From the NCBI GenBank assembly GCA_002104985.1, contig MCGO01000001.1, forward strand, positions 62,001-126,000: a DNA stretch of 64,000 nt. Reading direction: 5' to 3'. A model generated the notes under the pieces. That model was not told where the DNA came from. It did not search any database and worked only from the letters and a program-made list of their open reading frames with translations. Shown here piece by piece: positions 3,835-44,756 of this stretch. The position numbers and the translations under genes were made by a program. How positions within the stretch are numbered: the stretch's first letter is position 1; each line of letters begins with the position of its first letter. The stretch comes from Rhizoclosmatium globosum. Taxonomy: Eukaryota; Chytridiomycota; Chytridiomycetes; Chytridiales; Chytriomycetaceae.

Positions 3835-4092
3835 CCGTAAAGTATCGAGCCGTGCGCACACTTGGTGTTCTGAGCAAATTTTTCGCCGGACTAAACTCAA
3901 CTCTTCATTGCAGCGGATCCAGGGCCGTCAAGGCCTCACAAAACTCGGAAATAGCACATAGGGCCTTGTTTTATAGAATGGTTTGGTCGTTGATGTTGAG
4001 GACAACGGTGCAGTGACGGTAAAGTGATCCTAACAGTCGAGTTTTGACCGGAGTGCGCAGAAAAAAGTACTGCGCACGGCTCGATATTACGG
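3835..4092. mobile_element. 258-bp MITE with TA target duplication
   Basis: Imperfect terminal inverted repeats are visible: the left end begins CCGTAAAGTATCGAGCCGTG and the right end, read on the other strand, begins CCGTAATATCGAGCCGTGCG. Both ends continue into a shared GTGCGCA-type word. The dinucleotide TA flanks the element at 3833-3834 and 4093-4094, as expected for Tc1/mariner-type non-autonomous elements. No coding potential is seen inside. It fills most of the gap between the MULE and the PEPCK gene. Confidence 0.6.
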
Positions 4093-4218
4093 TAACAGAA
4101 AAAAATGTATGGAGCATGAAACAAAGTTTATTTCAGATTAAGGGAGTCGAGCAAATGATACATTGAAAAGGAATGAAGGAGTGATGGATGCAAAGGAATC
4201 AAAAACCACCCAAATAGT

Positions 4219-6111
4219 TTAGTTGCTAACATTTGGACCAGCCTGCAAGACAGCATGGTCAGCCTTGTCAGCATAAGCAGCAAAGTTCTTGACAAACAAC
4301 TTGGCAAGCTTCTCAGTAGTAGCCTTGTAAGACTCAGCAGTACCAGTCCAGCTCTTTGCAGGGTTCAAAACCTCTGAAGGAACGTTGGAACAAGTCTTTG
4401 GAATAGCCAAGTTGAAGGTTGGGTAGTTTTCGTACTCCACCTTGTCGAGCTCTCCAGAGTGGATGGCATCGATAATGGCACGAGAGTACTTGAGAGAGAT
4501 ACGCTTTCCGGTTCCGTAGGCACCTCCGTTCCATCCAGTGTTGATCAACCAGGCGGAAGCTTGGTGCTCCTTCATCTTCTCGGCAAGCATGGAAGCGTAC
4601 TTTGTTGGGTGCCAGACAAGGAAGGGGGCACCGAAACAGGTGGAGAAGGTGGCAGTTGGCTCAGTGACACCTTCCTCGGTACCGGCAACCTTGGCAGTGT
4701 ATCCAGAGATGAAGTGGTATGAGACTTGGGCTGGGGTGAGCTTGGAGACTGGTGGAAGGACACCGAAAGCGTCACAGGTGAGGAGGATAATGTTCTTTGG
4801 GTGACCACCGACACATGGAAGCTTCGCGTTAGGGATGAAGTCAATTGGGTAAGCGACACGAGTGTTCTCAGTGAGGGAGATGTCAGCAAAGTCAATGACA
4901 CGGGTCTCGGCGTCGTAGACAACGTTCTCGACGACAGATCCGAAGCGGATGGCACCGAAAATCTCTGGCTCCTTCTCGGCAGAGAGGTCGACACACTTGG
5001 CGTAGCAACCACCTTCAATGTTGAAGATACCGTCGTTGGACCAGCAGTGCTCATCGTCACCAATGAGGAAACGGCGTGGGTCGGCAGAGAGGGTGGTCTT
5101 TCCGGTACCAGAGAGACCGAAGAAGAGGGAAACGTCACCGCTTGGACCCTCGTTGGCAGAGGAGTGGAGGGACAAGACACCAGCCTTTGGCATCAAGTAG
5201 TGCATGACAGTGAAGATACCCTTCTTCATCTCACCAGCGTACTGGGTACCGAGAATAACCATCTCACGACGGGCAAAGTTGAGAGAAACAGAGGTGGTGG
5301 AGGTCATACCAGTAGTGTAACGGTTGGCAGGGAACTCTCCAGCGTTGAAGATGGTGAAGTCTGGCTCACCGAAAGTCTTGAGCTCCTCCTCAGTTGGACG
5401 GATCAACATGTTCTTCATGAAGAGAGCGTGGTAGGCACGGGCACAGACGACACGGACCTTGATACGGTACTTTGGATCCCAACCGGCGAAACCGTCAAAG
5501 ACATAAAGACGGGAACGGGTGTTGAGGTAGTCAACGGCACGCTCGCGGTTGACCATGAAGGAGGTTTCGGTCATCTTGATGTTGACTGGGCCCCACTAAA
5601 AATGACATGTAATGATTAGTTTTTGAGTGTCGCTGAAAGATGGATAGGTTGGAGAAAGGAAGGGGTTGGTTTGTTCCGTTTTTCGAGGCGGGTCAGATCG
5701 GGTCAGCCACAGTCAGTCACACTGAATAGTCGCGCCACCAATCGGGATTAACAAGTGTACTCACCCAGACATTGTCGGTTGAGCCAGGCTCGTCAACAAC
5801 ACGCTTGTCGGCTGGGGAACGACCCTTCTTAGCACCCGAGTTGAGGGCAAGGGCACCGGTCGAGGTCAAGTGGGTTCCGGCTTCGTGGGCAAGGGCCTCC
5901 TCGTAGAGTACGGCAGTTGAGGCGTTGCGGATGATTGGCTTGGTGTCTGTTGTTTGTGTGCGGTAGCGTTAAGTTTAGTGTGAAGACAGAGAGACAGAGA
6001 GAAACAAGAAGGGCACGCACAGTCAACGTGGGCAACGCGGTGAAGTGCCTCGTGGATCTCGTCGTGGATCTCTGAGTCTGGGTTGGCTCTCTGGGGTGAT
6101 GCCTTGGACAT
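4219..6111 (-). CDS. PCK1: phosphoenolpyruvate carboxykinase (ATP)
   Basis: Converts oxaloacetate and ATP to phosphoenolpyruvate, CO2 and ADP, the committed cytosolic step of gluconeogenesis. Three exons are read: a first exon of about 30 codons from the ATG at 6111; a second (about 5765-5946) ending [10 protein letters not shown]; and a long third exon starting [13 protein letters not shown]. The P-loop [11 protein letters not shown] and the second nucleotide/metal motif GDDEHCW are intact, as are [20 protein letters not shown] flanking residues and the [17 protein letters not shown] segment. The total of about 548 residues is the usual fungal length and the frame is unbroken. The introns are about 75 and 160 bp. 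Codon use is strongly biased compared with neighbours, fitting a highly expressed gene. Long open frames on the opposite strand here are a by-product of that bias. Confidence 0.97.
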
Positions 6112-16865: not shown

Positions 16866-18766
16866 ATGGAATTCAACAAACCTTTGCTTGGCCATGTTCC
16901 CCCAAGTCCCAAATCCCTGAAACCATCCCTCTCCCACGGTAATCGAATCGGCTATTTGGCTTTCGGATTGCTCGTCGCTCTAGTTGTATTTGTGGGATGC
17001 CTAGAGTCCATCCACCCGGAACCAGTTTCGGATGTGAAGGATCCCTTCAAGTGGCAGTCGTGTCCCGGCAAAGACAAGGACTACAAATGCGGAAGACTCA
17101 AAGTTCCGTTGGACTACACAAAGGTGCGATAACTACTTTGATTGGATAAGGACTGATTTGCTTCACCAGAATCATTCGAAGACCATCGATATTGCTGTTG
17201 CTGTTTACAAGGCACAAGTTCAGCCTTCTCTTGGAACAATTACCTTCAACTTTGGTGGTCCGGGAGGTCCTGGAAAAGCCAGTGTGTTGGCACGTGGTCC
17301 TTCACTATCCGTACTCACTGGAGGCAGATACGATATTCTAGGCTTTGGTGCGGAACAGTTCCAACTTTTAAGTTTGAAATTAATGTGGTTATTTTAGATC
17401 CACGAGGGATTGGAGAGTCTGTTCCTATCACTTGCTTTGAAAGCGCCACTCATCATGCCCAATTCGACGTGATGGCGTCCATGATTTCCCCGCCAACGGT
17501 GAATGGACCCACTTCACAAGTGACTTCGTTTGCCGCTCTCCAGGAAGCTTGGGCAAAGAGCTGTGGTATGTATTCCTCTTTTTCGACGCGACATAAAGTA
17601 ACATTATCTTTCAAGCAAAATGGGCTGAAGATATACTTCCGCATATGTCCACCACTCAAGTCTCTCGCGACTTGGACGAAATCCGTAAAGCTCTTGGTGA
17701 CAGCGTGCTCAATTACTACGGCTTCTCATATGGAACAATGCTCGGCACTGTGTACACACAAATGTTTCCAAACAACGTCGGGCGCATGATTATCGACGGA
17801 GTTATGAATCCACTTACGTATATGGGAGGTCCCATTTTCAAGGACACACCAGGGGACTTCGTTGATACAGAAGAGCTGTTTGAAGCGTTTGGAAAGGAAT
17901 GTGACGACGCAGGACCTTCGCGATGTGCGTTGGCTGTTCCTGGATCGAAGACTACGACTAGAATCAGAGACTTTGCGAAACAGTTGGAACACAAACCACT
18001 CGTTGTTGTGGACGGGGCAACTGTGCCTTTCGTCATTCATCCTTTAGACGTTCTTCAAAAAATCTATGGTGCTTTGTATCGACCAGCTGGTTGGCCCGCC
18101 GTCGCAAAAACAATTGCGAAGGCTATCGCAGGAGATGGGTCCGATTTCAATGCCGAAAAATTGGATGCTTGCCCCATCAAAGATGAATCTGGTGATAACG
18201 GGATGCCCGGTGTTACTTGTTTGGATACATTCGGAAACCAAGCCGATTTCGCGGAATGGGAAAAGGCTGCAACAAGAATCCAAAAAGTCAGCCCGACTTT
18301 TGGTGTCGGAGGCTTGTGGAGTTATTTGGTGTGTAAATTCTGGCAAGTTCAACCATCTGAGCGTTTCACTGGTCCTTGGAATCACAAGCTAAAGAATCAG
18401 GTATTTCAACATGAACTGTCGAGCTTCCGTTGCTTAATTAACATCGATTAGATCCTCATAATTGGTAACACATTGGACATCATTACTCCGATTAGCAATG
18501 CAAGAACTGTGGAACGTATCATGGAGGGTGGGGGCGTTTTGTTGCATCACGATGGCTATGGACACTGTTCAACTGCTCACAAGAGTACGTGTACTTTGAA
18601 TTATATCAAGGACTATTTCAACGAAGGAACACTCCCGGAAAAAGGCACTGTGTGTAAAGTCGATCCAGACGTTGTCATCTTCCCAGAGCCTAGTCTTGTC
18701 GCAACCAAAGAGAATGACTGGCTTAATGATATCCACGATGTTGTAGTTGCAGTTAACTTGCGTTAA
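16866..18766 (+). CDS. membrane-anchored alpha/beta hydrolase, TAP-like peptidase family
   Basis: Probable serine hydrolase/aminopeptidase of the tripeptidyl-aminopeptidase-like group. Residues about 28-46 (IGYLAFGLLVALVVFVGC) form a signal anchor, placing the catalytic domain in the lumen or outside. The oxyanion motif NFGGPGGPG, the nucleophile elbow YGFSYG (about 17722-17740), the acid in NTLDIITP and the histidine in GYGHCS form a complete triad. Introns at about 17126-17169, 17353-17397, 17567-17615 and 18400-18450 all restore one frame. Several paired cysteines fit an extracytoplasmic protein. Substrate is not evident. The 3' end originally lay about 60 bp from the F-box-like gene now at 24907, before the KDZ insertion. 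Confidence 0.85.
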
Positions 18767-18814: not shown

Positions 18815-18822
18815 AAAAAGGA
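18815..18822. repeat. 8-bp target site duplication (left), AAAAAGGA
   Basis: The octamer AAAAAGGA abuts the first base of the left terminal inverted repeat and is repeated exactly at 24897-24904. An 8-bp duplication is the expected hallmark of KDZ transposition. Confidence 0.93.
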
Positions 18823-18909
18823 CACCTGGTCTTTTTGGATCGTATGACAACAACTCAGGAAATTTTTTTGGGCTCCCCAATTGTGAATCAGCCATCTGAC
18901 GAGCCGCGC
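18823..18909 (+). repeat. left terminal inverted repeat of KDZ element
   Basis: An 87-bp repeat matching the inverse complement of 24810-24896 with a handful of mismatches near positions 22-40 and 76-78. It contains the core GGGCTCCCCAATTGTGAATC. Confidence 0.93.
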
Positions 18910-18956
18910 ACGCAACCTGAAAAAAACATCAACTTCCTCAAACACTGACGCAGAGA

Positions 18957-21881
18957 ATGCACCAACGCCGCACAAGACCCTCCCGACGTGAATCGACAGC
19001 CATCCATAGAGGAAATCATGTGGATACAGACGGCAAACCGCGGCGCCGGGAGCCTGCTACGCAGGACCCGTATATGGAAGCAGCCCTTGCTCTCCTTCAG
19101 CAACAGCGAGCCACCACTCACGCCACCCTATTCCGCACCAATACAAACAGTGCGACGCCTAGTTCACCCATGCATATTGACGGCGACGAGGCTGGCTTTG
19201 ACGACACTATGCCTGATGAACCTGACAACGAGTAAGTGGTTGAGCTCAGTCCTGATACTCTTCTTATCAACGTTTTAACTTTTATTTAGACCCGAGATTG
19301 AAGAGGAATTCGACATTGAAGCGGAGCTTGCAGAACTTGGTCCTGAATTCATTCGCAACTTTGGTTCCATCCTCTCGAGCTTTGACCCTGTTCCTTCAGT
19401 TGCTGAGCCCAAGACCTGGCATGATAAACGCGCCAATCATCTATCCGACTGTGATGCCGTTGTTCCACTTCTCATCCCTGCCGTTGCTTGTCTTGAGACT
19501 CTTGACCTCCTTGCCCCAGGACGTTGCTGTTCTATTGATGGATGCGCAGAGCCACCTGTATTTCGCTGCTTTAGTTGTGTCATGTCCAGTTTCCAGAAGA
19601 CGCATTTCTGTTCAGCACATGCTTCGTTACACCGCTACAACAATCTTTGCCATCGAGTCAAGAATCGGGCTGACGAGCTACCCCCGACACATACCACTGC
19701 TTCTGGGAATACTGTCTTCAAAAAAATTATGTGTTGTGATGGAGCAAGAGGTCATGGAAGGCGGGCGCAGTTTCATTCTTTGACTGGAACCGAGATAGTT
19801 CAACTAGTCTACTGCCCAAATCATTCGGACGGACAGGAAATGTGTGTTGTTCTGGTTCGCGATTATGGATTCTTCCCCTCTCGGGTACGCAATACAGGTT
19901 TGTTTTACGTTGTGTGAAGTTTGGTATATTTACACGACTTTAGACCATGCCTTTTCGTATCAGTTAGTTTCGCTGGGTCTTACACTTCGTCAGCTTGGTG
20001 TTGCATTTCTGATATCAGCTGAGGCTTTTTTTGGAACCAGTCTCAAAGATCCCAAGGCCAGTGGGCTATATCAGCCATTCATGGATGCTGTTCGACAACT
20101 TGCAATAGTTAAGCATCATCTACATCATGGGACATTCTCGCCTGAGATTGTGACTGAACTTGGGATTGGACAATCACAGTGCCCAGCATGTATTGGCGGT
20201 GACGACGTACAGGGACCAGCTGCTTTTGTAAGTGGCAGTACTTACTCACATTTATACTAATTGATGTTTGTCAGACTATGGACGGGTTTGAATCAGCCAG
20301 CAAGAAATCCGTGGAGCGTGGTGGAGGGACATCTCACGGGACTCATGGATTCACAGATGTTTACTTCAAGACTCCAACAGTTCCAGATGTTGTGGCTAAT
20401 CGTGCTGCGTCAAAGGTCAGCGGAAGTGGGGGAAAGGGCAGCAGGGTCGGCACTCAGATTGGTTGCGACGCTGTACACAAGGCAGGGGCTGAGAGTGTGA
20501 CTAAGTCAACTGGAAAGGATGTTGATATGATTGTGCATGTAGACTGTGCTGCACATTCAATTGTTCATCGGGTGTATGGTAAGCTTGAATTTAGCTCCGT
20601 TCATTGCTGACTATGAGGTTAGATGTGAAGGGAGGGGAGCGACTTTGGTATGCCGACGACGTGCTTCACTGGGGAGTTACCGAATTTGTGAAACGAGGTT
20701 TCATCTTGGGATATGACGTTGCCTGCAAAGAGCTGTCTCATCTATTGTTCTATGATCTTTTTTTCCCTATTATTGGTCTAATGCTATTAATTCTATTTAT
20801 TCCAGCAATGCATGTGTACGCACATGGCAAAGACTGTCAGTGTTTGTTTAGTCCAAGGTTTTTGATGGGGCTGGGCTTGACGATGGATGGAGAAGGACAT
20901 GAGCGAGTTAACAGCTGGCTATCGCGTATGATTGGGTTGACTCAGCGAGAAACATGGGAAAATCGGCGGATGGATATTGTATTGTTTTTGGAGTGGTACA
21001 ATCAGATGAAGATACGAAGGTTGGTGGATTGGACGGAGGAGAAGCTTGTTGCAACATTTGCCGGTTTGGCTGAAGTGAAGGCGGCATTGGGTAGTCAGTG
21101 GCCAAAAGTGGAGGAAGCAGTGTATGAAGTTGTTGTGACGGGTGTGACTCGCGAGCGTCGGAAGTTGGTGGAGAAGGCAAAGGAGGGGGCTTTAACTTCC
21201 AAGGAGGATCTGCGTCAGCAAATTGATCATCTTGCTCGCAGTGTGGTCGCAATTGACAAGCACCTTAAGTCAGCACCTGGAACCAAGATGGTATCACGCT
21301 TGAGGAAGGCACTGGCGTCAACGTTTATTTCTATTCATAAGAAACTGGATGAGTTTAACGGTGGGTTTCGGTACAGTTGGTTGTCAACGTTGGTCACTCA
21401 CCTGTTCTTAAATATAGAATTGCAACCCAAAGAAGCTACACCTCTTACGTTTGCTGTCGTCAAAAAGGATCTTACCATGCTTGGTACAGGACGTGCTGCC
21501 GCTGATGCTCGTGAAGTCCGAGACCTTGTCACACTATACTTTCGTTACTGCGAGGACCTCTTTCATCACAAAAACTACTTGAATAATCTGCAGGGCTATT
21601 ATAGAAAGCGGTTGGAAGTACACTGGGATCGTGTTCGTGCAACAGTTGGCAAGCTTAGTGACTGTCGGGCTGCAGAGGCGTTGCTGACTATTGTGGATAG
21701 GCGGATAAAGGTAGAGGCTGAGTATTCGAGGAAGGCAAAGGAGACGCTGCACCTTTTTGGAGACGATGAGAATGCATTGTTGTACTTTGACAAGCATATT
21801 GACCAGATACAGCAAGCATTCTCTTCCAAGGAGTCAGCCTTGAGTCTCCAGAACCTCAGAGATGCTCAATTACGCAAATAA
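18957..21881 (+). CDS. KDZ transposase with CxC zinc-binding N-terminal region
   Basis: Transposase that should excise and insert the surrounding element. The N-terminal exon (18957-19231) is acidic/Ser-rich. The next exon holds a Cys/His cluster (CCSIDGCAEPPVFRCFSC ... HFCSAHASLHRYNN) of the type found before KDZ cores. The core includes CPACIGGDDVQ, then DGFESASKK after an intron, GYDVACKELS, the AMHVYAHGKDCQ motif and DGEGHERVNSWLS, which contain the conserved acidic residues of the family. Introns are inferred at about 19232-19288, 19896-19941, 20229-20274 and 20580-20624, all consistent with one frame; a further 30-bp intron near 20780 is possible. The last exon is coiled-coil rich. The gene ends convergently with the accessory gene about 300 bp away. 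Confidence 0.88.
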
Positions 21882-22179
21882 AATATGTTTGAGAAATAAT
21901 TGCAGTTTGTTATTTTGACACTCAATACTTCATATAAGTCGGGTAGGGGTCAGTACTAACACAACCACAACTCTGGACTTATGTATTGCAAAACAGTCGA
22001 AATTTCCAAACCAATAGATTCCCATTAAGAGATTACAGGACCGTGGCCTTCTGTGACAGGAAGATGGTTGATGGTGGATTACGCACGTTTCCTTTTAAAT
22101 TTCACATACAAAAACAAATAGAAACCCATAACACCCCCAAGGATGTCTTTATTCCGAAATAACCATTACAAAAAACTAA
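21882..22179. other. spacer between convergent KDZ-element genes
   Basis: AT-rich 298 bp separating the 3' ends of the transposase and accessory genes. Polyadenylation-type AATAAA/AAATAA words occur on both strands. No ORF or repeat is recognised. Confidence 0.5.
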
Positions 22180-24739
22180 TTATGTATAGAGACGTGTCTG
22201 GACCTTCATTTCTGATTGCACCTGCTTTGTATCTGGTTTCACTTGAGCTGGGCGGGGAATTTGACGCGCGATTCTCAACCAAACAACTTTGTATGCAAGG
22301 GCACTAAGCTGTACAGACTTTGGATTGCCAAACGTCATGATGTTGCGAACATGTGCTCGAAATACAGTGGGTTTCATAGTTGCGAAGAACGGTCGGTCGT
22401 ACGACTTTGCCAAGCCAAGAACTCTGTGTCATCGTCAGTTGAATTATACGCGCACGCTTAAAGAACTCACATCTTTCGAAAGTTGGGCTGAATCATATGA
22501 TTCAGAAACTTTGCTTCTTCGTCTGGTGAAGTTTCTTGGGTTTTGACGTCAGATATTTGGTTCAAGTCATCAAGTAAGTGAGTCTCTGTAGCTCCATAGC
22601 GCGACAGAGCTTCTAACAGCCGTTCATCTTGAACTTTATGGACTTTGCGAAGGTGCCCTTCAACGTTGGAGTTGGGGTATGTACAAGTGCGATTGAGCGG
22701 GCAAAATGGCATTAATTCTTTAATGGCAGAAGAAACTCCATCTCACAAGTAATTAAAAATAAATCCACCAATTCAAACAATTTTCAGGCTTCTGATGCAG
22801 CTCTCACCTCTGACTCCTCTTGAACAATTTCCATTAGTTCGTCAAGCTCAGCCTCAACATCCGTGTCCCTCGAATGTCTATCAAGACCTGTCACGTAGCC
22901 AGCTTTTTGTGCTTGGTTCAGTCTTCTGATGGTGTAATCTTCTTCCTCGTCATCGCCTCCTACATTTAGCTTGTCACCCAAACCCGCTTCGACATCTTCA
23001 GAATCTTCCTCTCTGTTGGCTAGATCTTCATCCTCTTCTAATTCAGCATCGACATGTTCGTCCTCAACTTCGTCCTCCTCTACATCATTGATACGTTCGT
23101 CCTCAACGTCGTCATCCTCTTCCTCATCAACTATTCCGTCAGCCACTAACTCAAGCTTGATTCTGTTTGCCGTCAATCCAGACAACACAGCCTCGCACTC
23201 CTAATATGTATCATTCAGTTTTCGGTTTACTTTGGTAGAATATTCTCACCGCATTTGAACGACATTGCCATCGGTTCGCTGTCAATGGGAATTGTACCAG
23301 TCTTACTCTGTCAATTCCTTTCACACTAAGTAGCTTCTTGACTTGTACTTTGGTAGGTTCAGGCTTCTTCAGTCTTGCGAACTCTTGGCGAATGAACTTG
23401 AGGAGTTCCATTTGTGAACGAAGCCGCAGATGCTTATTTTGCTTCGAAGCTTCCGCTGTTATAGACGGCAATCCAGGAAATGCAGTTCGACTTTTCCGGT
23501 GTACTTCGATAAGGAACAATACGGGAGGGTGGGTTTCATCCCGGCGTGATAGATAGTCGCTGACCTTGCGCCCAAATTCCCCAGTGCTGACATCCTTAGA
23601 CAAGTTCGTGTTTACATTGTATAGACATCCTTGCAATTCGTCACCATATGCGACTTAAGTTGAAAAGTTAGCGACGATGGATGACAGAAATTACAACTCA
23701 CGAAGCTTGTGAAGTACGTTTGATAGCAAAGCATGAAGCTCTTTTCTTTCCCGTGCAATAGTTTGATTTGGAATCTCGTTGTAACGTGGTCCGTTCGCAT
23801 TCTCCAATGCACTCTCCCGTTCCCAATTCTCCCATAACCTGGCATACTCTTCTGTTTCCTTCGCTTCAGCCAATTGATACAGAGATTTTCCATCATTTTC
23901 GCGTTTGAACTTATCCTCCCATTGTCTAAAGTTCAAAGATTTGTAGTTTGGATCGAGGGATTTTCCTTCCCTATTCAATCCTAATGTCAACATGAGCATT
24001 GACAACTGATGAAAGCAAAATATGCTTACCTGTTATAATGATTCCTCCATACTTTTGGTACTGGTCATACGCAGACTTTGCCTTCTTTTTGCGGTTGAAC
24101 GTGGGCTTGGAAATAAAGCGATCCACAGAAGCCTGCACAGTTTGTAGCCCCTGCGGTACAGCCGGTACAGCTACATTTGGTGCAGGATGGGCGGATTGGT
24201 GTGCCTCTTGAATGGCACGAAGTTGTTCTTGGAGGTTCGCCAAAACTGATTGAAGCTCTTGCGTTTGAGACGAAGACGATTCTGCAATAATGCCAAATTA
24301 GTGACGTTTAAGCAATCTCTGAGATACCGTGACTGGATGAGTTTGGAGTTACATTAGTGGGAACTGACCCAAGCTCCACAGGGAGATCATCCGATACATT
24401 CTCATCGCCTTCGCCTTCTATTTGCTTTATGAATCCTCGAATAAATGTCTGATGGTTCAAGTGTTAGTATGACAGTAGCTGTCAAGTTTGTTTGACAACC
24501 AACGACTTACTCGAACTTCCTCGATATTCAATCCGAAATAATTCGCGAGCTTCGTGTAGTGCTTTGTGTGGCTTGCATTGGCCGTTAACCCGAACGCCCG
24601 TATGTGGCTTTCGATCAGCATCCGTGCCTCATCTGGAAGTCCAACTCTCTTCCTCTTGTTGACTCCTCCTTGTGACTATTTAATTCAGATAGTTAGAAGT
24701 GTAGAAGAAATAGCTCTGACACCTCGCTACTCTTACCAT
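22180..24739 (-). CDS. KDZ-element accessory protein: zinc-finger/acidic, unknown function
   Basis: Multi-exon gene opposite to the transposase and wholly inside the element. The ATG at 24739 is immediately followed by an intron (ATG then GTAAGA ... AATAG), so only Met is in exon 1. The protein then reads SQGGVNKRKRVGLPDEARML, a short basic N-terminus with helices, a Gln-rich coiled coil (LQSVLANLQEQLRAIQ), a helical region (LNFRQWEDKFKRENDGKSLY), a basic domain (about 23230-23640) and an Asp/Glu-rich exon (22784-23188). Near the C-terminus comes a possible C2H2 finger: Cys-x5-Cys followed by HLRKVH. I do not recognise the family. It is not a TET/JBP dioxygenase, the partner known from mushroom KDZ elements. 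DNA binding or regulation of transposition is a guess. The exact exon join near 22780 is uncertain. Confidence 0.65.
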
Positions 24740-24809
24740 TTTGGAGGTGCTTTTTGTTGTGTTTTGTGTGATGTTGGGAGAGAATTGTCAAGATATCTAT
24801 TGCACTCTC

Positions 24810-24896
24810 GCGCGGCTCGTCGAATGGCTGATTCACAATTGGGGAGCCCAAAAAAATTTTCCAAGTTGTTATCGTACGATCCAAAAAGACCAGGTG
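24810..24896 (-). repeat. right terminal inverted repeat of KDZ element
   Basis: Inverse complement of the left 87-bp repeat; ends GACCAGGTG next to the right target duplication. Confidence 0.93.
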
Positions 24897-24904
24897 AAAA
24901 AGGA
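24897..24904. repeat. 8-bp target site duplication (right), AAAAAGGA
   Basis: Exact copy of the octamer at 18815-18822. It ends two bases before the ATG at 24907. Confidence 0.93.
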
Positions 24905-24906
24905 AC

Positions 24907-25953
24907 ATGGCTGAGATGAATCAGATGATATCAAGAAGCCGCAACGACGGTTTAAGCCACAAGTACCCCGAATCAAGCACAGTGCATAGTTCTATACAAC
25001 TACGAAGGTCAATATCTTTCAGTTTATCGTGTTTCCCGGCCGAAGTTATTGATCTGATTGTGAGCTACTTGGACACTGAGTCGATCCTGCCATTCTGCCA
25101 CACAATCAGACACCTACTTCCACTTTCAGAAACAATATTTAAAGTTGGCAGAGCGTTTGGAGTTCCCATCGATGAGATATGGCCAGCTTTCAACTTCCCA
25201 ATGTCAAAACCACCACCACTCATAGCTGGTCAAGAAGACGACGACGAAGAAGAAGCGGAGGAGTTTATTCCACAGCCAATTGAGATACCCGTCGAACATA
25301 TCGATGCTGTCAAGAGTCTCATCGTGTACCTCAATCGATACGGTGGATCTGCTCACATCAAGCCTACTACGCCTGAATACTTGAGCAACATTATCCCATT
25401 AGCGCCACGACGAGTCTCCCTTTCCCTCTCCCTCATTTCCACAGGCCCAACACCTCCCCTCACAACACAACAAACAATATCTCTCCTCGAGAAGCTATCC
25501 ATATTCGAAAACGTGCATATTACTCGATTCACAATCACCGAGCACGATCCAAGTTTGCTTCCACATCTCGCACGGGCACTGACACAGTTTGCTCGTGTGG
25601 AACGGTTCCGTTGTTTCGGCCGTCTTGCACCTACGCTTATTCCTGTACTTCCTAAAATCAATGGATTTACGAGTTTTAAGCTGTTCAAGGTGGACGATTT
25701 CCCTGTGAATGTGTTGAAGGAATGTGAGGACCTGGAAAGGCTCAGTCTTGTTGTTGCGAGGAGTTTTTCGGTTGAGTTCGTACGGGATTTGATTGGTGTA
25801 TTGTCTGCATGTCGGAAGTTGCGGTGGGTGATGATTCCGAATTGGTATGAAGGTGCAAATGCAGATGAGGTTGAGAGGGCGTTGGAGGCTATTGGATGGA
25901 ATCTAGAGAGGGACGTGTATAACTTTGTGTTTCATAAGGATGGAGCTCCATAA
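24907..25953 (+). CDS. F-box-like protein lacking the N-terminal coiled coil (subfamily B)
   Basis: Single-exon gene of 348 codons. F-box-like segment LSCFPAEVIDLIVSYLDTES and FCHTIRHLLPLS, marker EIWPAFNFP, an acidic insert (EDDDEEEAEEF), subfamily B marker YLNRYGGSAHI, then leucine-rich repeat-like sequence (LERLSLVVARSFSVEFV). Unlike its paralogues it has only a short polar N-terminus (MAEMNQMISRSRNDG) and no coiled coil. The KDZ transposon ends 2 bp upstream of the target-duplicated start region, so its own promoter has been displaced by 6 kb; transcription, if any, must start in the element. The frame is intact. Confidence 0.72.
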   Translation: MAEMNQMISRSRNDGLSHKYPESSTVHSSIQLRRSISFSLSCFPAEVIDLIVSYLDTESILPFCHTIRHLLPLSETIFKVGRAFGVPIDEIWPAFNFPMSKPPPLIAGQEDDDEEEAEEFIPQPIEIPVEHIDAVKSLIVYLNRYGGSAHIKPTTPEYLSNIIPLAPRRVSLSLSLISTGPTPPLTTQQTISLLEKLSIFENVHITRFTITEHDPSLLPHLARALTQFARVERFRCFGRLAPTLIPVLPKINGFTSFKLFKVDDFPVNVLKECEDLERLSLVVARSFSVEFVRDLIGVLSACRKLRWVMIPNWYEGANADEVERALEAIGWNLERDVYNFVFHKDGAP

Positions 25954-40529: not shown

Positions 40530-41901
40530 TCATACGTAGATTCCAACCGCCGCCAACACTGCTAATACGGTTGCTATCATCCACCATGCAACGCATTCTA
40601 TCCCACTTTCCTTTTTATCCACACGTAAATGCTCGGGGGTCTTGTACAGAAACTTCTGATGCATTTCGTTCCAATTCGTGCCTAAGAACATCCTCTCCGA
40701 CTTGGACAGCCTTGCAGCCCACTTTCCAAATGTCCCAATCGGGGTTTGCACAACTCCGCCGAAACGTCCAATGGTTACAATGAATAGACCGCCAGGCGTT
40801 GATTTCGTATATAGCGCAGAAGCAGGTTTGCCAGCGATTGCGTTGATGATGTTCGTACAAATGACGGGCGACTGGAAACGTGTTGCGAGGTATGCCAGTT
40901 TCGCGTCGTCCAACGTTGATACGTCTCCAACAGCGTACATGTGTGGGAAATCTTTGAGTTGGCCAGTTGGTTCTACCAAAATGAAGCCGCGGGGATCGAG
41001 AGTTTCGGGGAGGGATTTAGCAAGGAATGTCGTGTTTGGACGGATGGATCCCGTGCAAATGAACTGTACGTCACTTTGAATTATTTGACCAGATGTTGTG
41101 GCGATTTTGTGAGGGCTGAGGTTGTATGGTTTTCCATCTGGGAGAAGTGTTGTGCTCCGGGAAGAAGTGCAGCTCGGGTATTCAACAGAACTTCAACCCC
41201 GAGGGAGGAGAGTTGTGAGTTTACTTCTTTCGTAGTTGCGACACTGGGAGCAATCTTGTCCATAAGAACTGAGGCGGAATGGATTATTGTGACTTTCTTG
41301 CCAGGAAGTCTGTCGCAATTTCACCGGCAAGCTCGATGCCCACAACTAATTAATGCAAGATATTAGTATCGAAAAACAACGTCAATTGTTCAGCGAGTCA
41401 AACGTTACCTCCACCACCAACGATAACAACTGATTCAGACTTTTCAACAGCCCTCTGAATTCTTTCCATCTCATTCACATAATCATCCTTTGAAATAAAT
41501 GATGTTCCTCCAGGTGCAGGCTGAGAAACGCCCGTCGCAATTACCAGGTAATCAAAGACAATCGTTTCCCCATTTCACAGCTTGACTTCTTTCTCAGTCA
41601 TTGTTTCAGCACGAGCTTGAATCACTCTGGAGTTCCTGTTGTGTTGGAATAGGCTGGAGTAAGGAATCCAGGTGTGTTGGGCGTAGTTTGGTTCAACCGC
41701 CGCACGAAGTCCTCCTACTTGATAGTAAAATGCTTCGCGCTCCTCGATTAAGATAATGTTTGCCTATGGTAGATGAAGATGAGTCGAGGGGATTGCAAAG
41801 AAGGAAGATGGTACCTTGGTTCTCAGGCTCTTATCAAGGCCTTCAGCAACACCCTTGCCGGCAAAGGAGCCTCCAATTATCACAATAGTAGGTACTGGCA
41901 T
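40530..41901 (-). pseudogene. AIF/FSP1-like FAD oxidoreductase, copy 1 (disrupted)
   Basis: Pyridine nucleotide-disulphide oxidoreductase of the AIFM2/FSP1 type. The N-terminal FAD motif TIVIIGGSFAGKGVAEGL is intact and a short intron follows. The second nucleotide-binding motif (VVIVGGG) is split by an intron, and the FAD-contact motif HMYAVGDVSTLDD is present. The end is hydrophobic (ATVLAVLAAVGIY), suggesting a tail anchor. Two lesions: TGA at 41575-41577 where copy 2 has TCA (Ser in KLSNG), and one missing base near 41140-41158 relative to copy 2. The nonsense change is a substitution, so decay is more credible here than for the frameshift-only genes. Confidence 0.7.
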
Positions 41902-42052
41902 ATTTGTACTGTGCTTTTAACTTGATGGATTTGTGGTCTGGGAAATGATGAGTGATTGGAAATCCTGTAAATGGTTTGAAATCATTAAAAAAATGCTTAC
42001 GTTTATACTGCCAGGAATTTATTTATGCATTCATATATCATGCAAATATCAA

Positions 42053-43453
42053 TCAATTCTCCTGATTCTTGACATACAACCCAACAGCCGCCGCCGCCGC
42101 CAAAACAGTCGCAACAATCCCCCACCCAACAACCCCACCACTCCCACTCTCCCTCTGATTCACCAACAAATGCTCAGGAGTCTTGTACACATACGGCTGC
42201 CTCATCTCCTTCCAATACTTATCCAAAAACAATCCATTCGATTTAACCATTCTCGCCGCCCACTTCCCAAACGTCCCAATCGGGGTCTGCAAGACCCCCC
42301 CGAACCGCCCAATCGTCGCAACAAAGAACCCACCAGGCACAGCCTTCTTGTACACAGCCGTCGCGGGTTTCCCGCAACCGCATCCGTGATATTCGCAACG
42401 ATTACCGGCGCCTGGTTCGAAAACGCGAGGTACGCGAGTTTCAAGTCGTCGAGGGTTGATACATCGCCGAGAGCGTACATGTGTGGGTGGGCCTTGAACT
42501 GGCCCGTGGGTTTCACGGAGACGAAGCCGTGTGTGTCGAGGGAGTCTGGAAGGGGTTTTGTGAGGAAGGATGTGTTTGGATGGGCGGATCCTGTGCATAG
42601 GAATTGGATGTCGCTTTGGATTGTTTCGTTGGTTGTTGTGGTGATTTTGTGGTGGCCGAGGTGGTATGGTTTTCCGTCTGGGAGGAGGGTTTTGGCGCCT
42701 GGGAGGGGTGTTGCGCGGGTGTTGAGGAGGACTTGGACTCCGAGGGCGGAGAGTTGGGAGTTGATTTCTTTTGTGGTGGATGCGGTTGGGTAGAGCTTGT
42801 CCATGAGGACTGAGGCAGAGTGGATAATGGTGACCTTCTTGGATGGGAAGTCAGTTGCGATTTCACCAGCAAGCTCAACACCGACGACTGTACGTAAGGT
42901 ATTAGCATCGAAATTAATTGTAGACTAAGGAATTTCGCCTTTACCTCCTCCACCAACAATTACGACCGATTCAGCTTTTTCAACAGCTTTCTGCACCTTT
43001 TCCATCTCCTTGACATACTCATCCTTAGAAACAAAAGAAGTTCCTCCAGGAGCCGACTGCGAAAGTCCAGTCGCAATGACGATATAATCAAAAGCAATGG
43101 TTTGCCCGTTTGACAGCTTGACCTCCTTGTCAGTAACCGATTCCGCACGAGCTTGAATCACTTTAGAGTTATTATTGTGTTGGAAGAGATTGGAGTATGG
43201 AATCCAAGTGTGTTGGGCGTAGTTTGGTTCAACTGCGGCACGAAGACCTGCGATTTGGAAGTAAAGCCTTCTCGTTCTTCGATCAAAATGATGTTTGCCT
43301 GATACAAGAATTTAAAAGGGATTGGCGTGGAATGGGCTGGCTAAATGGATTTTCGGGTATGTACTAACCTTCGTCTTGAGGTCTTGTCAAGTCCTTCAGC
43401 GACAGAGTTTCCAGCGAACGATCCCCAACGATAACAATAGTAGGGACTGACAT
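42053..43453 (-). CDS. AIF/FSP1-like FAD oxidoreductase, copy 2 (four apparent 1-bp deletions)
   Basis: Tandem relative of 40530-41901. NAD(P)H:quinone-type oxidoreductases of this group reduce ubiquinone or similar acceptors at membranes. The middle is open and conserved (KLSNGQTIAFDYIVIATGLS; MDKLYPTASTTKEINSQLSA; HMYALGDVSTLDDLKLAYLA) and the C-terminus is hydrophobic (IVATVLAAAAAVGLYV). Single bases are missing relative to copy 1 near 43424, 43380, 43264 and 42369, each in a 2-4 base homopolymer. Between these points the protein is conserved, which suggests assembly errors rather than decay. One intron interrupts the second dinucleotide-binding motif. Confidence 0.68.
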
Positions 43454-43641
43454 CGATGCTTTTTTAAGATGATTTTGTTTTGGTGCTTTGTGTAAAGCCG
43501 TTGATATCTGGGTCGATTGGAAATCGGGTATTTGTAATCATGAAATCATTTCATATAATTACCAACACTTAAAATTTGAAACTCATCAGCAACAAGAGTA
43601 CTTTGATATGTAATACATTAAAGTTTCCATCGAAAATGTTG

Positions 43642-44756
43642 TTATAGTATTCTACCACAATAAAACCAAAGAACAGTCACACCTTTCTTCCTCCAAGAAA
43701 CTTTTCCCTCATCATCTCTAACACTCCATCCAACCTCCTTCACGTGCACCTCTAAACTACGTACAGTCTCCAACCCTTTCTCCCCTTCCTCCCCTTCCCA
43801 CTCAAACACCACCTTCCACAGACCAGTCTTCTTCAACGCATCCACCAACTCCTTCAACGCCTCCACCGAACACCTCGGTTTCTGCACAAACAAACAAGTA
43901 ATATTCTGACACTCCATCAAAACAGAACACGGAAACAGTGTGGGGTTAAAGAAACAGAGGATACGGAGGGACGGCATGTACTTTAAAATAGACGCGTGAG
44001 GTGGTTGAGTATCACCAAGAAAGATGTATGCTTCTGCAGAGAGTGTTTTGAGTGTTGATGTGAACGTGGAGTCTGTGAATGGATTGTTTTGTGGGCTGGT
44101 TGAGAAAGGTGTGGAAGGGGGAGGGAGAGGAGACGGATTCTGAGGGAGAGAGAGGAGAGGTGTGTTAAGATGGCGGTTATGTCTTGAGAGGGAGTGTAGA
44201 GAATGTTAGGTTCACACCAATTGTTTTGGGCAAGAAGGGTGTGATTGATGTAAGGTATTCTAGGGATGTGGGTGAAATAAGGCCAGATCCATCGTATTTC
44301 GAGAGGAGGCGCGATAAATTGTGGAGGTGGATGGCTGCATGGAGAGGAATCTGGAGAGTTGGGTCAAATGAAAAGTGGGGCCACATGTCAGATACTTTGC
44401 GGAGTTTGAATACTTGGGCTGTAGTATATAATGTGTGCGAAATGTGTTTGTAGAATGGGATGGCATGGCAGAGAGTAAACAAAGAGGTAGAGTCGACATA
44501 ACACGCGATTTTGTCCAATATTTCGTTTGGAAGAGATTCGAGAGAAGAGTTTGGAATATGTAGTTGATTTTTAAGTAATTGATGAGTGGAGATTGTATTT
44601 GAGTTGTTTGACAGGTGGAAGGCCGAGTAGAGCGCGATACTGGTTCACTTCAGAGAGAGCATACTGAAGCTGTGATTCCAGTTGATCGATATGGCCGTCC
44701 TTGAGTGTGCACTTTTCGCAGCCACTTTCTCCCTCTGAGCTACGAAAGTTAATCAT
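43642..44756 (-). pseudogene. F-box-like family member with several frame breaks (subfamily B)
   Basis: Three separate frames together cover one F-box-like protein. The first (44571-44756) gives CEKCTLKDGHIDQLESQLQY, the Cys-containing start and coiled coil. The second (44177-44518 and upstream codons) gives LESLPNEILDKIACYVDSTS, CHAIPFYKHIS, MWPHFSF and RLLSKYDGSG. The third (43642-43977) gives the C-terminal leucine-rich part. Breaks occur around 44560-44585 and 44150-44180 and possibly once more near 44100. Whether it is dead or mis-assembled cannot be decided from sequence. Confidence 0.65.

Follow-up and report, generated by a model that had tools for sequence, protein, structure and literature searches.

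An insert in the chytrid Rhizoclosmatium globosum (Chytridiomycota, Chytridiales, Chytriomycetaceae), 6,074 bp long and spanning positions 18823-24896 of the window, is, as judged from its sequence, very probably a DNA transposon of the KDZ (Kyakuja-Dileera-Zisupton) type that is complete, moves by cut and paste and is potentially autonomous. By the window we mean the whole stretch of DNA analysed (64,000 nt; MCGO01000001.1, positions 62,001-126,000 of the forward strand); coordinates are window positions unless a contig is named, and contig labels (C1, which carries the element, C42, etc.) refer to the same assembly.

Ends of the element and target site duplication

The left terminal inverted repeat (TIR) begins at 18823 with CACCTGGTC and the right one ends at 24896 (Table 1). 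The two arms are identical at 80 of 87 positions (92% complementary, approximately 8% divergent) and all seven mismatches are transitions. The exact flanking repeat reaches a maximum of 8 bp, AAAAAGGA, and because this is the longest exact repeat on the two flanks, the boundaries at 18815-24904 are exact. The odds of an exact 8-mer abutting both ends by chance are about 4^-8 (arithmetic, assuming even composition). With the 5' TIR as query, just the element's own two arms matched in the 56.9-Mb assembly; the single-copy TIR and the 8-bp limit of the flanking repeat rule out that the element lies within a wider repeat. Both arms having been aligned, and AAAAAGGA standing on both sides, the preliminary description of a complete element with 87-bp TIRs and a perfect 8-bp target site duplication (TSD) is borne out, and its reservation that the TSD might belong to a longer unrelated repeat falls away. 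The search of the genome with the TIR that it had proposed for the detection of other copies and empty sites returned no further copy, while two empty sites were found with the joined flanks (see below). No relatives of the element were found among the bacterial and archaeal contigs searched.

Table 1 Features of the KDZ element of R. globosum (window positions)
Feature	Position	Strand	Details
Left TSD	18815-18822		AAAAAGGA; flank comparison; single copy at two empty sites
5' TIR, 87 bp	18823-18909	+	Arm alignment; 15-base end pattern with 19 occurrences in the assembly
KDZ transposase gene, 890 aa	18957-21881	+	6 exons: 18957-19231, 19290-19897, 19944-20227, 20275-20578, 20623-21360, 21418-21881
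Gene 3, 161 aa	22180-22712	-	Modelled with 2 exons: 22471-22712, 22180-22423; starts MPFCPLN
Gene 2, 546 aa as modelled	22784-24739	-	7 exons; acidic C-terminal tail
3' TIR, 87 bp	24810-24896	-	Arm alignment
Right TSD	24897-24904		AAAAAGGA; flank comparison

The transposase gene

The spliced transposase is identical to a public predicted protein, P0001. The match to PF18758 covers positions 5-210 of the 217 of the profile with 73 bits (cut-off 26.6), which bears out the KDZ identity proposed earlier; this score and the database match were obtained with a 909-aa model in which one intron was still included, the final product being 890 aa long. The database search returned 11 proteins (its own included) from Rhizoclosmatium, Obelidium and Chytriomyces (species according to the source labels), the best match being a R. 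globosum protein. In the alignment of ten homologues D522 is present in 10/10, D392 and E581 each in 9/10, the homologues with gaps at D392 or E581 being P0006 and P0011; these three residues of the 890-aa protein are a putative catalytic triad, acidic catalytic residues within an RNase H-like fold being a mark of KDZ transposases. P0002, a protein of Rhizoclosmatium sp. JEL0117, was kept out of this alignment because it consists of a shortened transposase repeated three times. Blocks of 110 and 158 aa in it are identical to the transposase of the window, the third repeat showing two differences, and P0002 may represent a very recent relative, a copy that was rearranged or a fault of the assembly. 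By eye the transposase of the window shows a cysteine cluster; no Pfam cysteine-cluster family matched it.

We propose that the transposase binds the 87-bp TIRs, that D392, D522 and E581 presumably serve as its metal-ion active site, and that it would cut the element out and join it to target DNA opened by cuts 8 bases apart, the repair of which would generate the TSD.

Related elements in the genome

A search of the genome with PF18758 gave 26 hits. Of these, 25 lie outside the window, and 23 of them (all but those in C69 and C402) are covered by the twenty stretches that were fetched; nine of the twenty match the DNA of the element. The ends were checked in the six closest relatives, one of which (C90) lacks the left end in its stretch. 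The five with both ends all begin with CACCTAGTCTTT and are flanked by perfect 8-bp TSDs (GAAAAACG, GACTTTCT, GTTTTTTC, GAGTGAAT and ACGTATTC), hence a perfect 8-bp TSD accompanies every element with both ends available (6/6, that of the window included), and other copies end at matching bases rather than elsewhere, the latter having been named as an outcome that would count against the element. Two pairs of relatives are nearly identical (C401 and C113, 99.78%; C35 and C157, 99.67%) with the members of each pair at different targets, so both families moved recently. The TIRs of these relatives are without mismatch over the first 91 bases in C35 and in C157, 98 in C404 and 87 in C401 and C113.

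For a 15-base end pattern, CACCTRGTCTTTKTB, the genome contains 19 matches, versus none for the reversed control. These 19 matches make up nine facing pairs (in C1, C35, C90, C113, C157, C279, C388, C401 and C404) and a lone match in C365. The relatives are not uniform in this respect: the exact pattern is missing from C224, C361 and C418, which match the element more weakly; C281 and C24 carry end-like matches outside the exact pattern. The elements at C279:126531-130842 and C388:725969-730264 share the same TIR ends. They are probably deleted, non-autonomous derivatives, because each is only 4.3 kb long, resembles the C35 element in separate pieces and was not among the PF18758 hits. Within the sister element of C90 lies an LTR retrotransposon of 8 kb (C90:187272-195309) that by eye resembles Copia, with 536-bp LTRs that are 100% identical and with about 29 perfect 60-bp tandem repeats inside; a further 1.1 kb is inserted near the left TIR of the same sister element.

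It is conceivable, at a probability that we regard as low, that the copy in the window is non-autonomous or dead, i.e. that its ends and frames are intact while it is immobile, with active transposases being supplied by the sister families. This insertion is indeed a single copy with unequal TIRs (7/87), and sister families exist in multiple, nearly identical copies. However, an open frame of 890 aa encodes the transposase, the insertion is absent from two near-identical copies of its locus (see the next section), and the JEL0117 protein contains blocks identical to the transposase. We thus retain a potentially autonomous element as the preferred reading.

Empty sites and age of the insertion

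A 400-base query, made by joining the two flanks across a single target copy, was compared to the assembly. It matches over its full length at C107:6019-6409 (98%) and C42:101436-101827 (97%), and both sites read AAAAAAGGAACATGGCTGAGATGATAT, that is, one target copy with the insert absent. Immediately to the right of the junction the window differs from both sites, and this fits a net length difference of 8-9 bases. Pieces of the flanks sampled from the window are collinear in C42 and C107, with a span of approximately 17 kb in each and a spacing that corresponds to the window minus the insert. The piece at 25105-27104 matches both contigs at 97%, the piece at 4001-6000 both at 98%, and the piece at 15001-17000 matches C42 at 98% and C107 at 92%. 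Pieces from about 4.1 to 27.1 kb of the window are accordingly present three times in the assembly (C1, C42 and C107) at 92-98% identity, unlike the piece at 42001-44000, for which no such copy was found in the assembly. The copies in C42 and C107 may be partial haplotypes or the result of segmental duplication. The simplest reading is that the element inserted into C1 after the copies of the locus had separated, whether these are haplotypes or duplicates.

A chance inverted repeat with a chance 8-mer around unrelated genes, in favour of which nothing was found, has practically no probability left: the 8-bp TSDs in 6/6 elements, the end pattern found 19 times versus 0 and the two uninterrupted sites together show that the structure is more than a chance repeat, and the exact ends, the empty sites and the sister elements refute coincidence.

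The element had been described as apparently young, and its recent insertion is upheld by the empty sites in C42 and C107; the divergence of the TIRs lends no support to youth, the arms being 8% different. Comparison of the TIRs, which had been put forward as a means of dating, turned out to be misleading, 8% standing against the mostly 2-3% between filled and empty copies of the locus, and TIR divergence was rejected as a clock, as the TIRs of a DNA transposon need not be equal at insertion. Since the 7/87 differences exceed the 2-3% of most sampled pieces of the locus, the TIRs were probably already unequal when the element moved. The TIR divergence, which is higher than in three sister elements, together with the one flanking piece that is just 92% identical to C107, could also be accommodated by an old element that was precisely lost from C42 and C107. 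This we consider very improbable, as the insert would have had to be lost twice at identical bases without a footprint, each site keeping one intact target copy, and as neither the frames, which are open, nor the base ratios, which are equal, show decay. There is no sign of repeat-induced mutation: the TA/AT, (CA+TG)/(AC+GT) and CpG ratios of the element differ little from the values for the remainder of the window. A recent insertion remains the preferred reading.

The left neighbour of the insertion is an alpha/beta hydrolase gene, the frame of which ends at 18766 with PF08386 in its last part. On the right, an ATG at 24907, two bases past the right TSD, opens a 348-aa ORF that is F-box-like by eye (no Pfam match at E 0.01); the insert would cut off this ORF from its upstream region. 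Elsewhere in the window the neighbouring stretches 40601-41901 and 42142-43453 are 72% identical and are likely a tandem gene pair.

Two further genes on the minus strand

The preliminary description of the contents of the element was right about the KDZ gene; it overlooked two minus-strand genes as well as the sister families. Neither gene 2 nor gene 3 matched any Pfam family over the cut-off. The model of gene 2 is uncertain at its first exon, which holds nothing but the ATG (24737-24739). All five relatives examined contain a homologue of the exon at 23250-23653 (33-36% identity), and the gene is conserved across all four families. For the single informative pair, C35 versus C113, dN is 0.194 and dS 1.47 (dN/dS about 0.13), the other five pairs being at or near silent-site saturation. 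Database homologues of gene 2 were not found at E 0.001, a weak negative, as the searches also failed to retrieve gene 2 of the sister families from this very genome; the fold model of its central domain is poor (pLDDT 45).

For these accessory genes the zinc-finger label (gene 3, C2H2-like) and the helix-turn-helix label were both assigned by eye. An ORF homologous to gene 3 is open in C404, whereas in C113 and C401 the frame breaks off at 21 residues, and short matches are found in C35 and C157. Gene 3 looks dispensable because the family with two near-identical copies (C113/C401) carries the broken version. Hence, given the conservation and the dN/dS of gene 2 and the open or interrupted state of gene 3, the element seems to have a working part in gene 2 and an optional one in gene 3.

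Six TET/JBP-like hits are present in the genome (C301, C101, C110, C334, C1:221290 and C17), three of them over the family cut-off together with neighbours; none of the six lies inside the nine facing TIR pairs. A TET/JBP gene as cargo was rejected: no Pfam match to such a gene was found in the three proteins of the element (0/3), and none of the six genomic hits is at the place of the element.

Gene 2, transcribed towards the transposase gene, may encode a protein with a helper or regulatory role that travels along with the element. We tentatively suggest a chytrid KDZ lineage with a dedicated helper, in which the product of gene 2, which would belong to an undescribed protein family and is encoded convergently with the transposase, is needed for or controls transposition and is sometimes accompanied by the small zinc-finger-like gene 3. 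As a candidate gene for a KDZ helper protein, the conserved gene 2 is in any case a definite one. If the suggestion is true, gene 2 would explain the presence of extra genes in KDZ elements without recourse to TET.

Comparison with known KDZ systems

No paper on KDZ elements of chytrids was found in the literature collection searched, and the element, as had been anticipated for a lineage of zoosporic fungi, is a good type element for chytrids. It offers to the Chytridiomycota the ends, TSD, gene models, empty sites and sister families in one public genome, and PCR across its filled and empty sites would allow tests of both insertion and excision. The accompanying claim that KDZ elements with defined ends are little described outside mushrooms is superseded, such elements being already in print for Cryptococcus KDZ1-3, rust Dileera and Zisupton (excerpts of PMC12810828 and PMC12730594). 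The published systems are compared below as they appear in excerpts of the sources cited.

TIRs and a TSD of defined length, 8 bp in Zisupton and Dileera (PMC12730594), are both present in the chytrid element, and this combination fits either the Zisupton or the Dileera branch. Similar to Kyakuja of Laccaria, it has a KDZ transposase and CA..TG ends; however, the 7-bp TSD and lack of TIRs that mark the Kyakuja branch (PMC12730594) contrast with its 8-bp TSD and 87-bp TIRs, and the element was therefore not assigned to that branch. It shares with the Zisupton elements of fish and nematodes a multi-exon KDZ transposase and TIRs, an 8-bp TSD having been reported for Zisupton, while Zisupton proteins reach about 1,400 aa, a CxC7 cluster occurs in platyfish and no TSD was detected in Pristionchus (PMC12730594, PMC9297572, PMC12062965). 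With Dileera of rust fungi (Zisupton-1_PGr) it shares the KDZ transposase, the 8-bp TSD and the presence of an extra internal gene, which is a TET/JBP dioxygenase in the rust element and an unrelated, unrecognised gene here (PMC12730594).

KDZ1, KDZ2 and KDZ3 of Cryptococcus neoformans were shown to be mobile; they are 9-11 kb long, with TIRs of 241, 139 and 169 bp, respectively, and TSDs of 8 bp in KDZ1 and 4-8 bp in KDZ2 and KDZ3 (PMC12810828). The chytrid element resembles them in its fungal KDZ transposase, its long TIRs and its 8-bp TSD. The Cryptococcus elements belong to a basidiomycete yeast and carry a CxC1 domain in the transposase, whereas the 6-kb chytrid element has 87-bp TIRs, minus-strand accessory genes and a transposase without a Pfam cysteine-cluster match.
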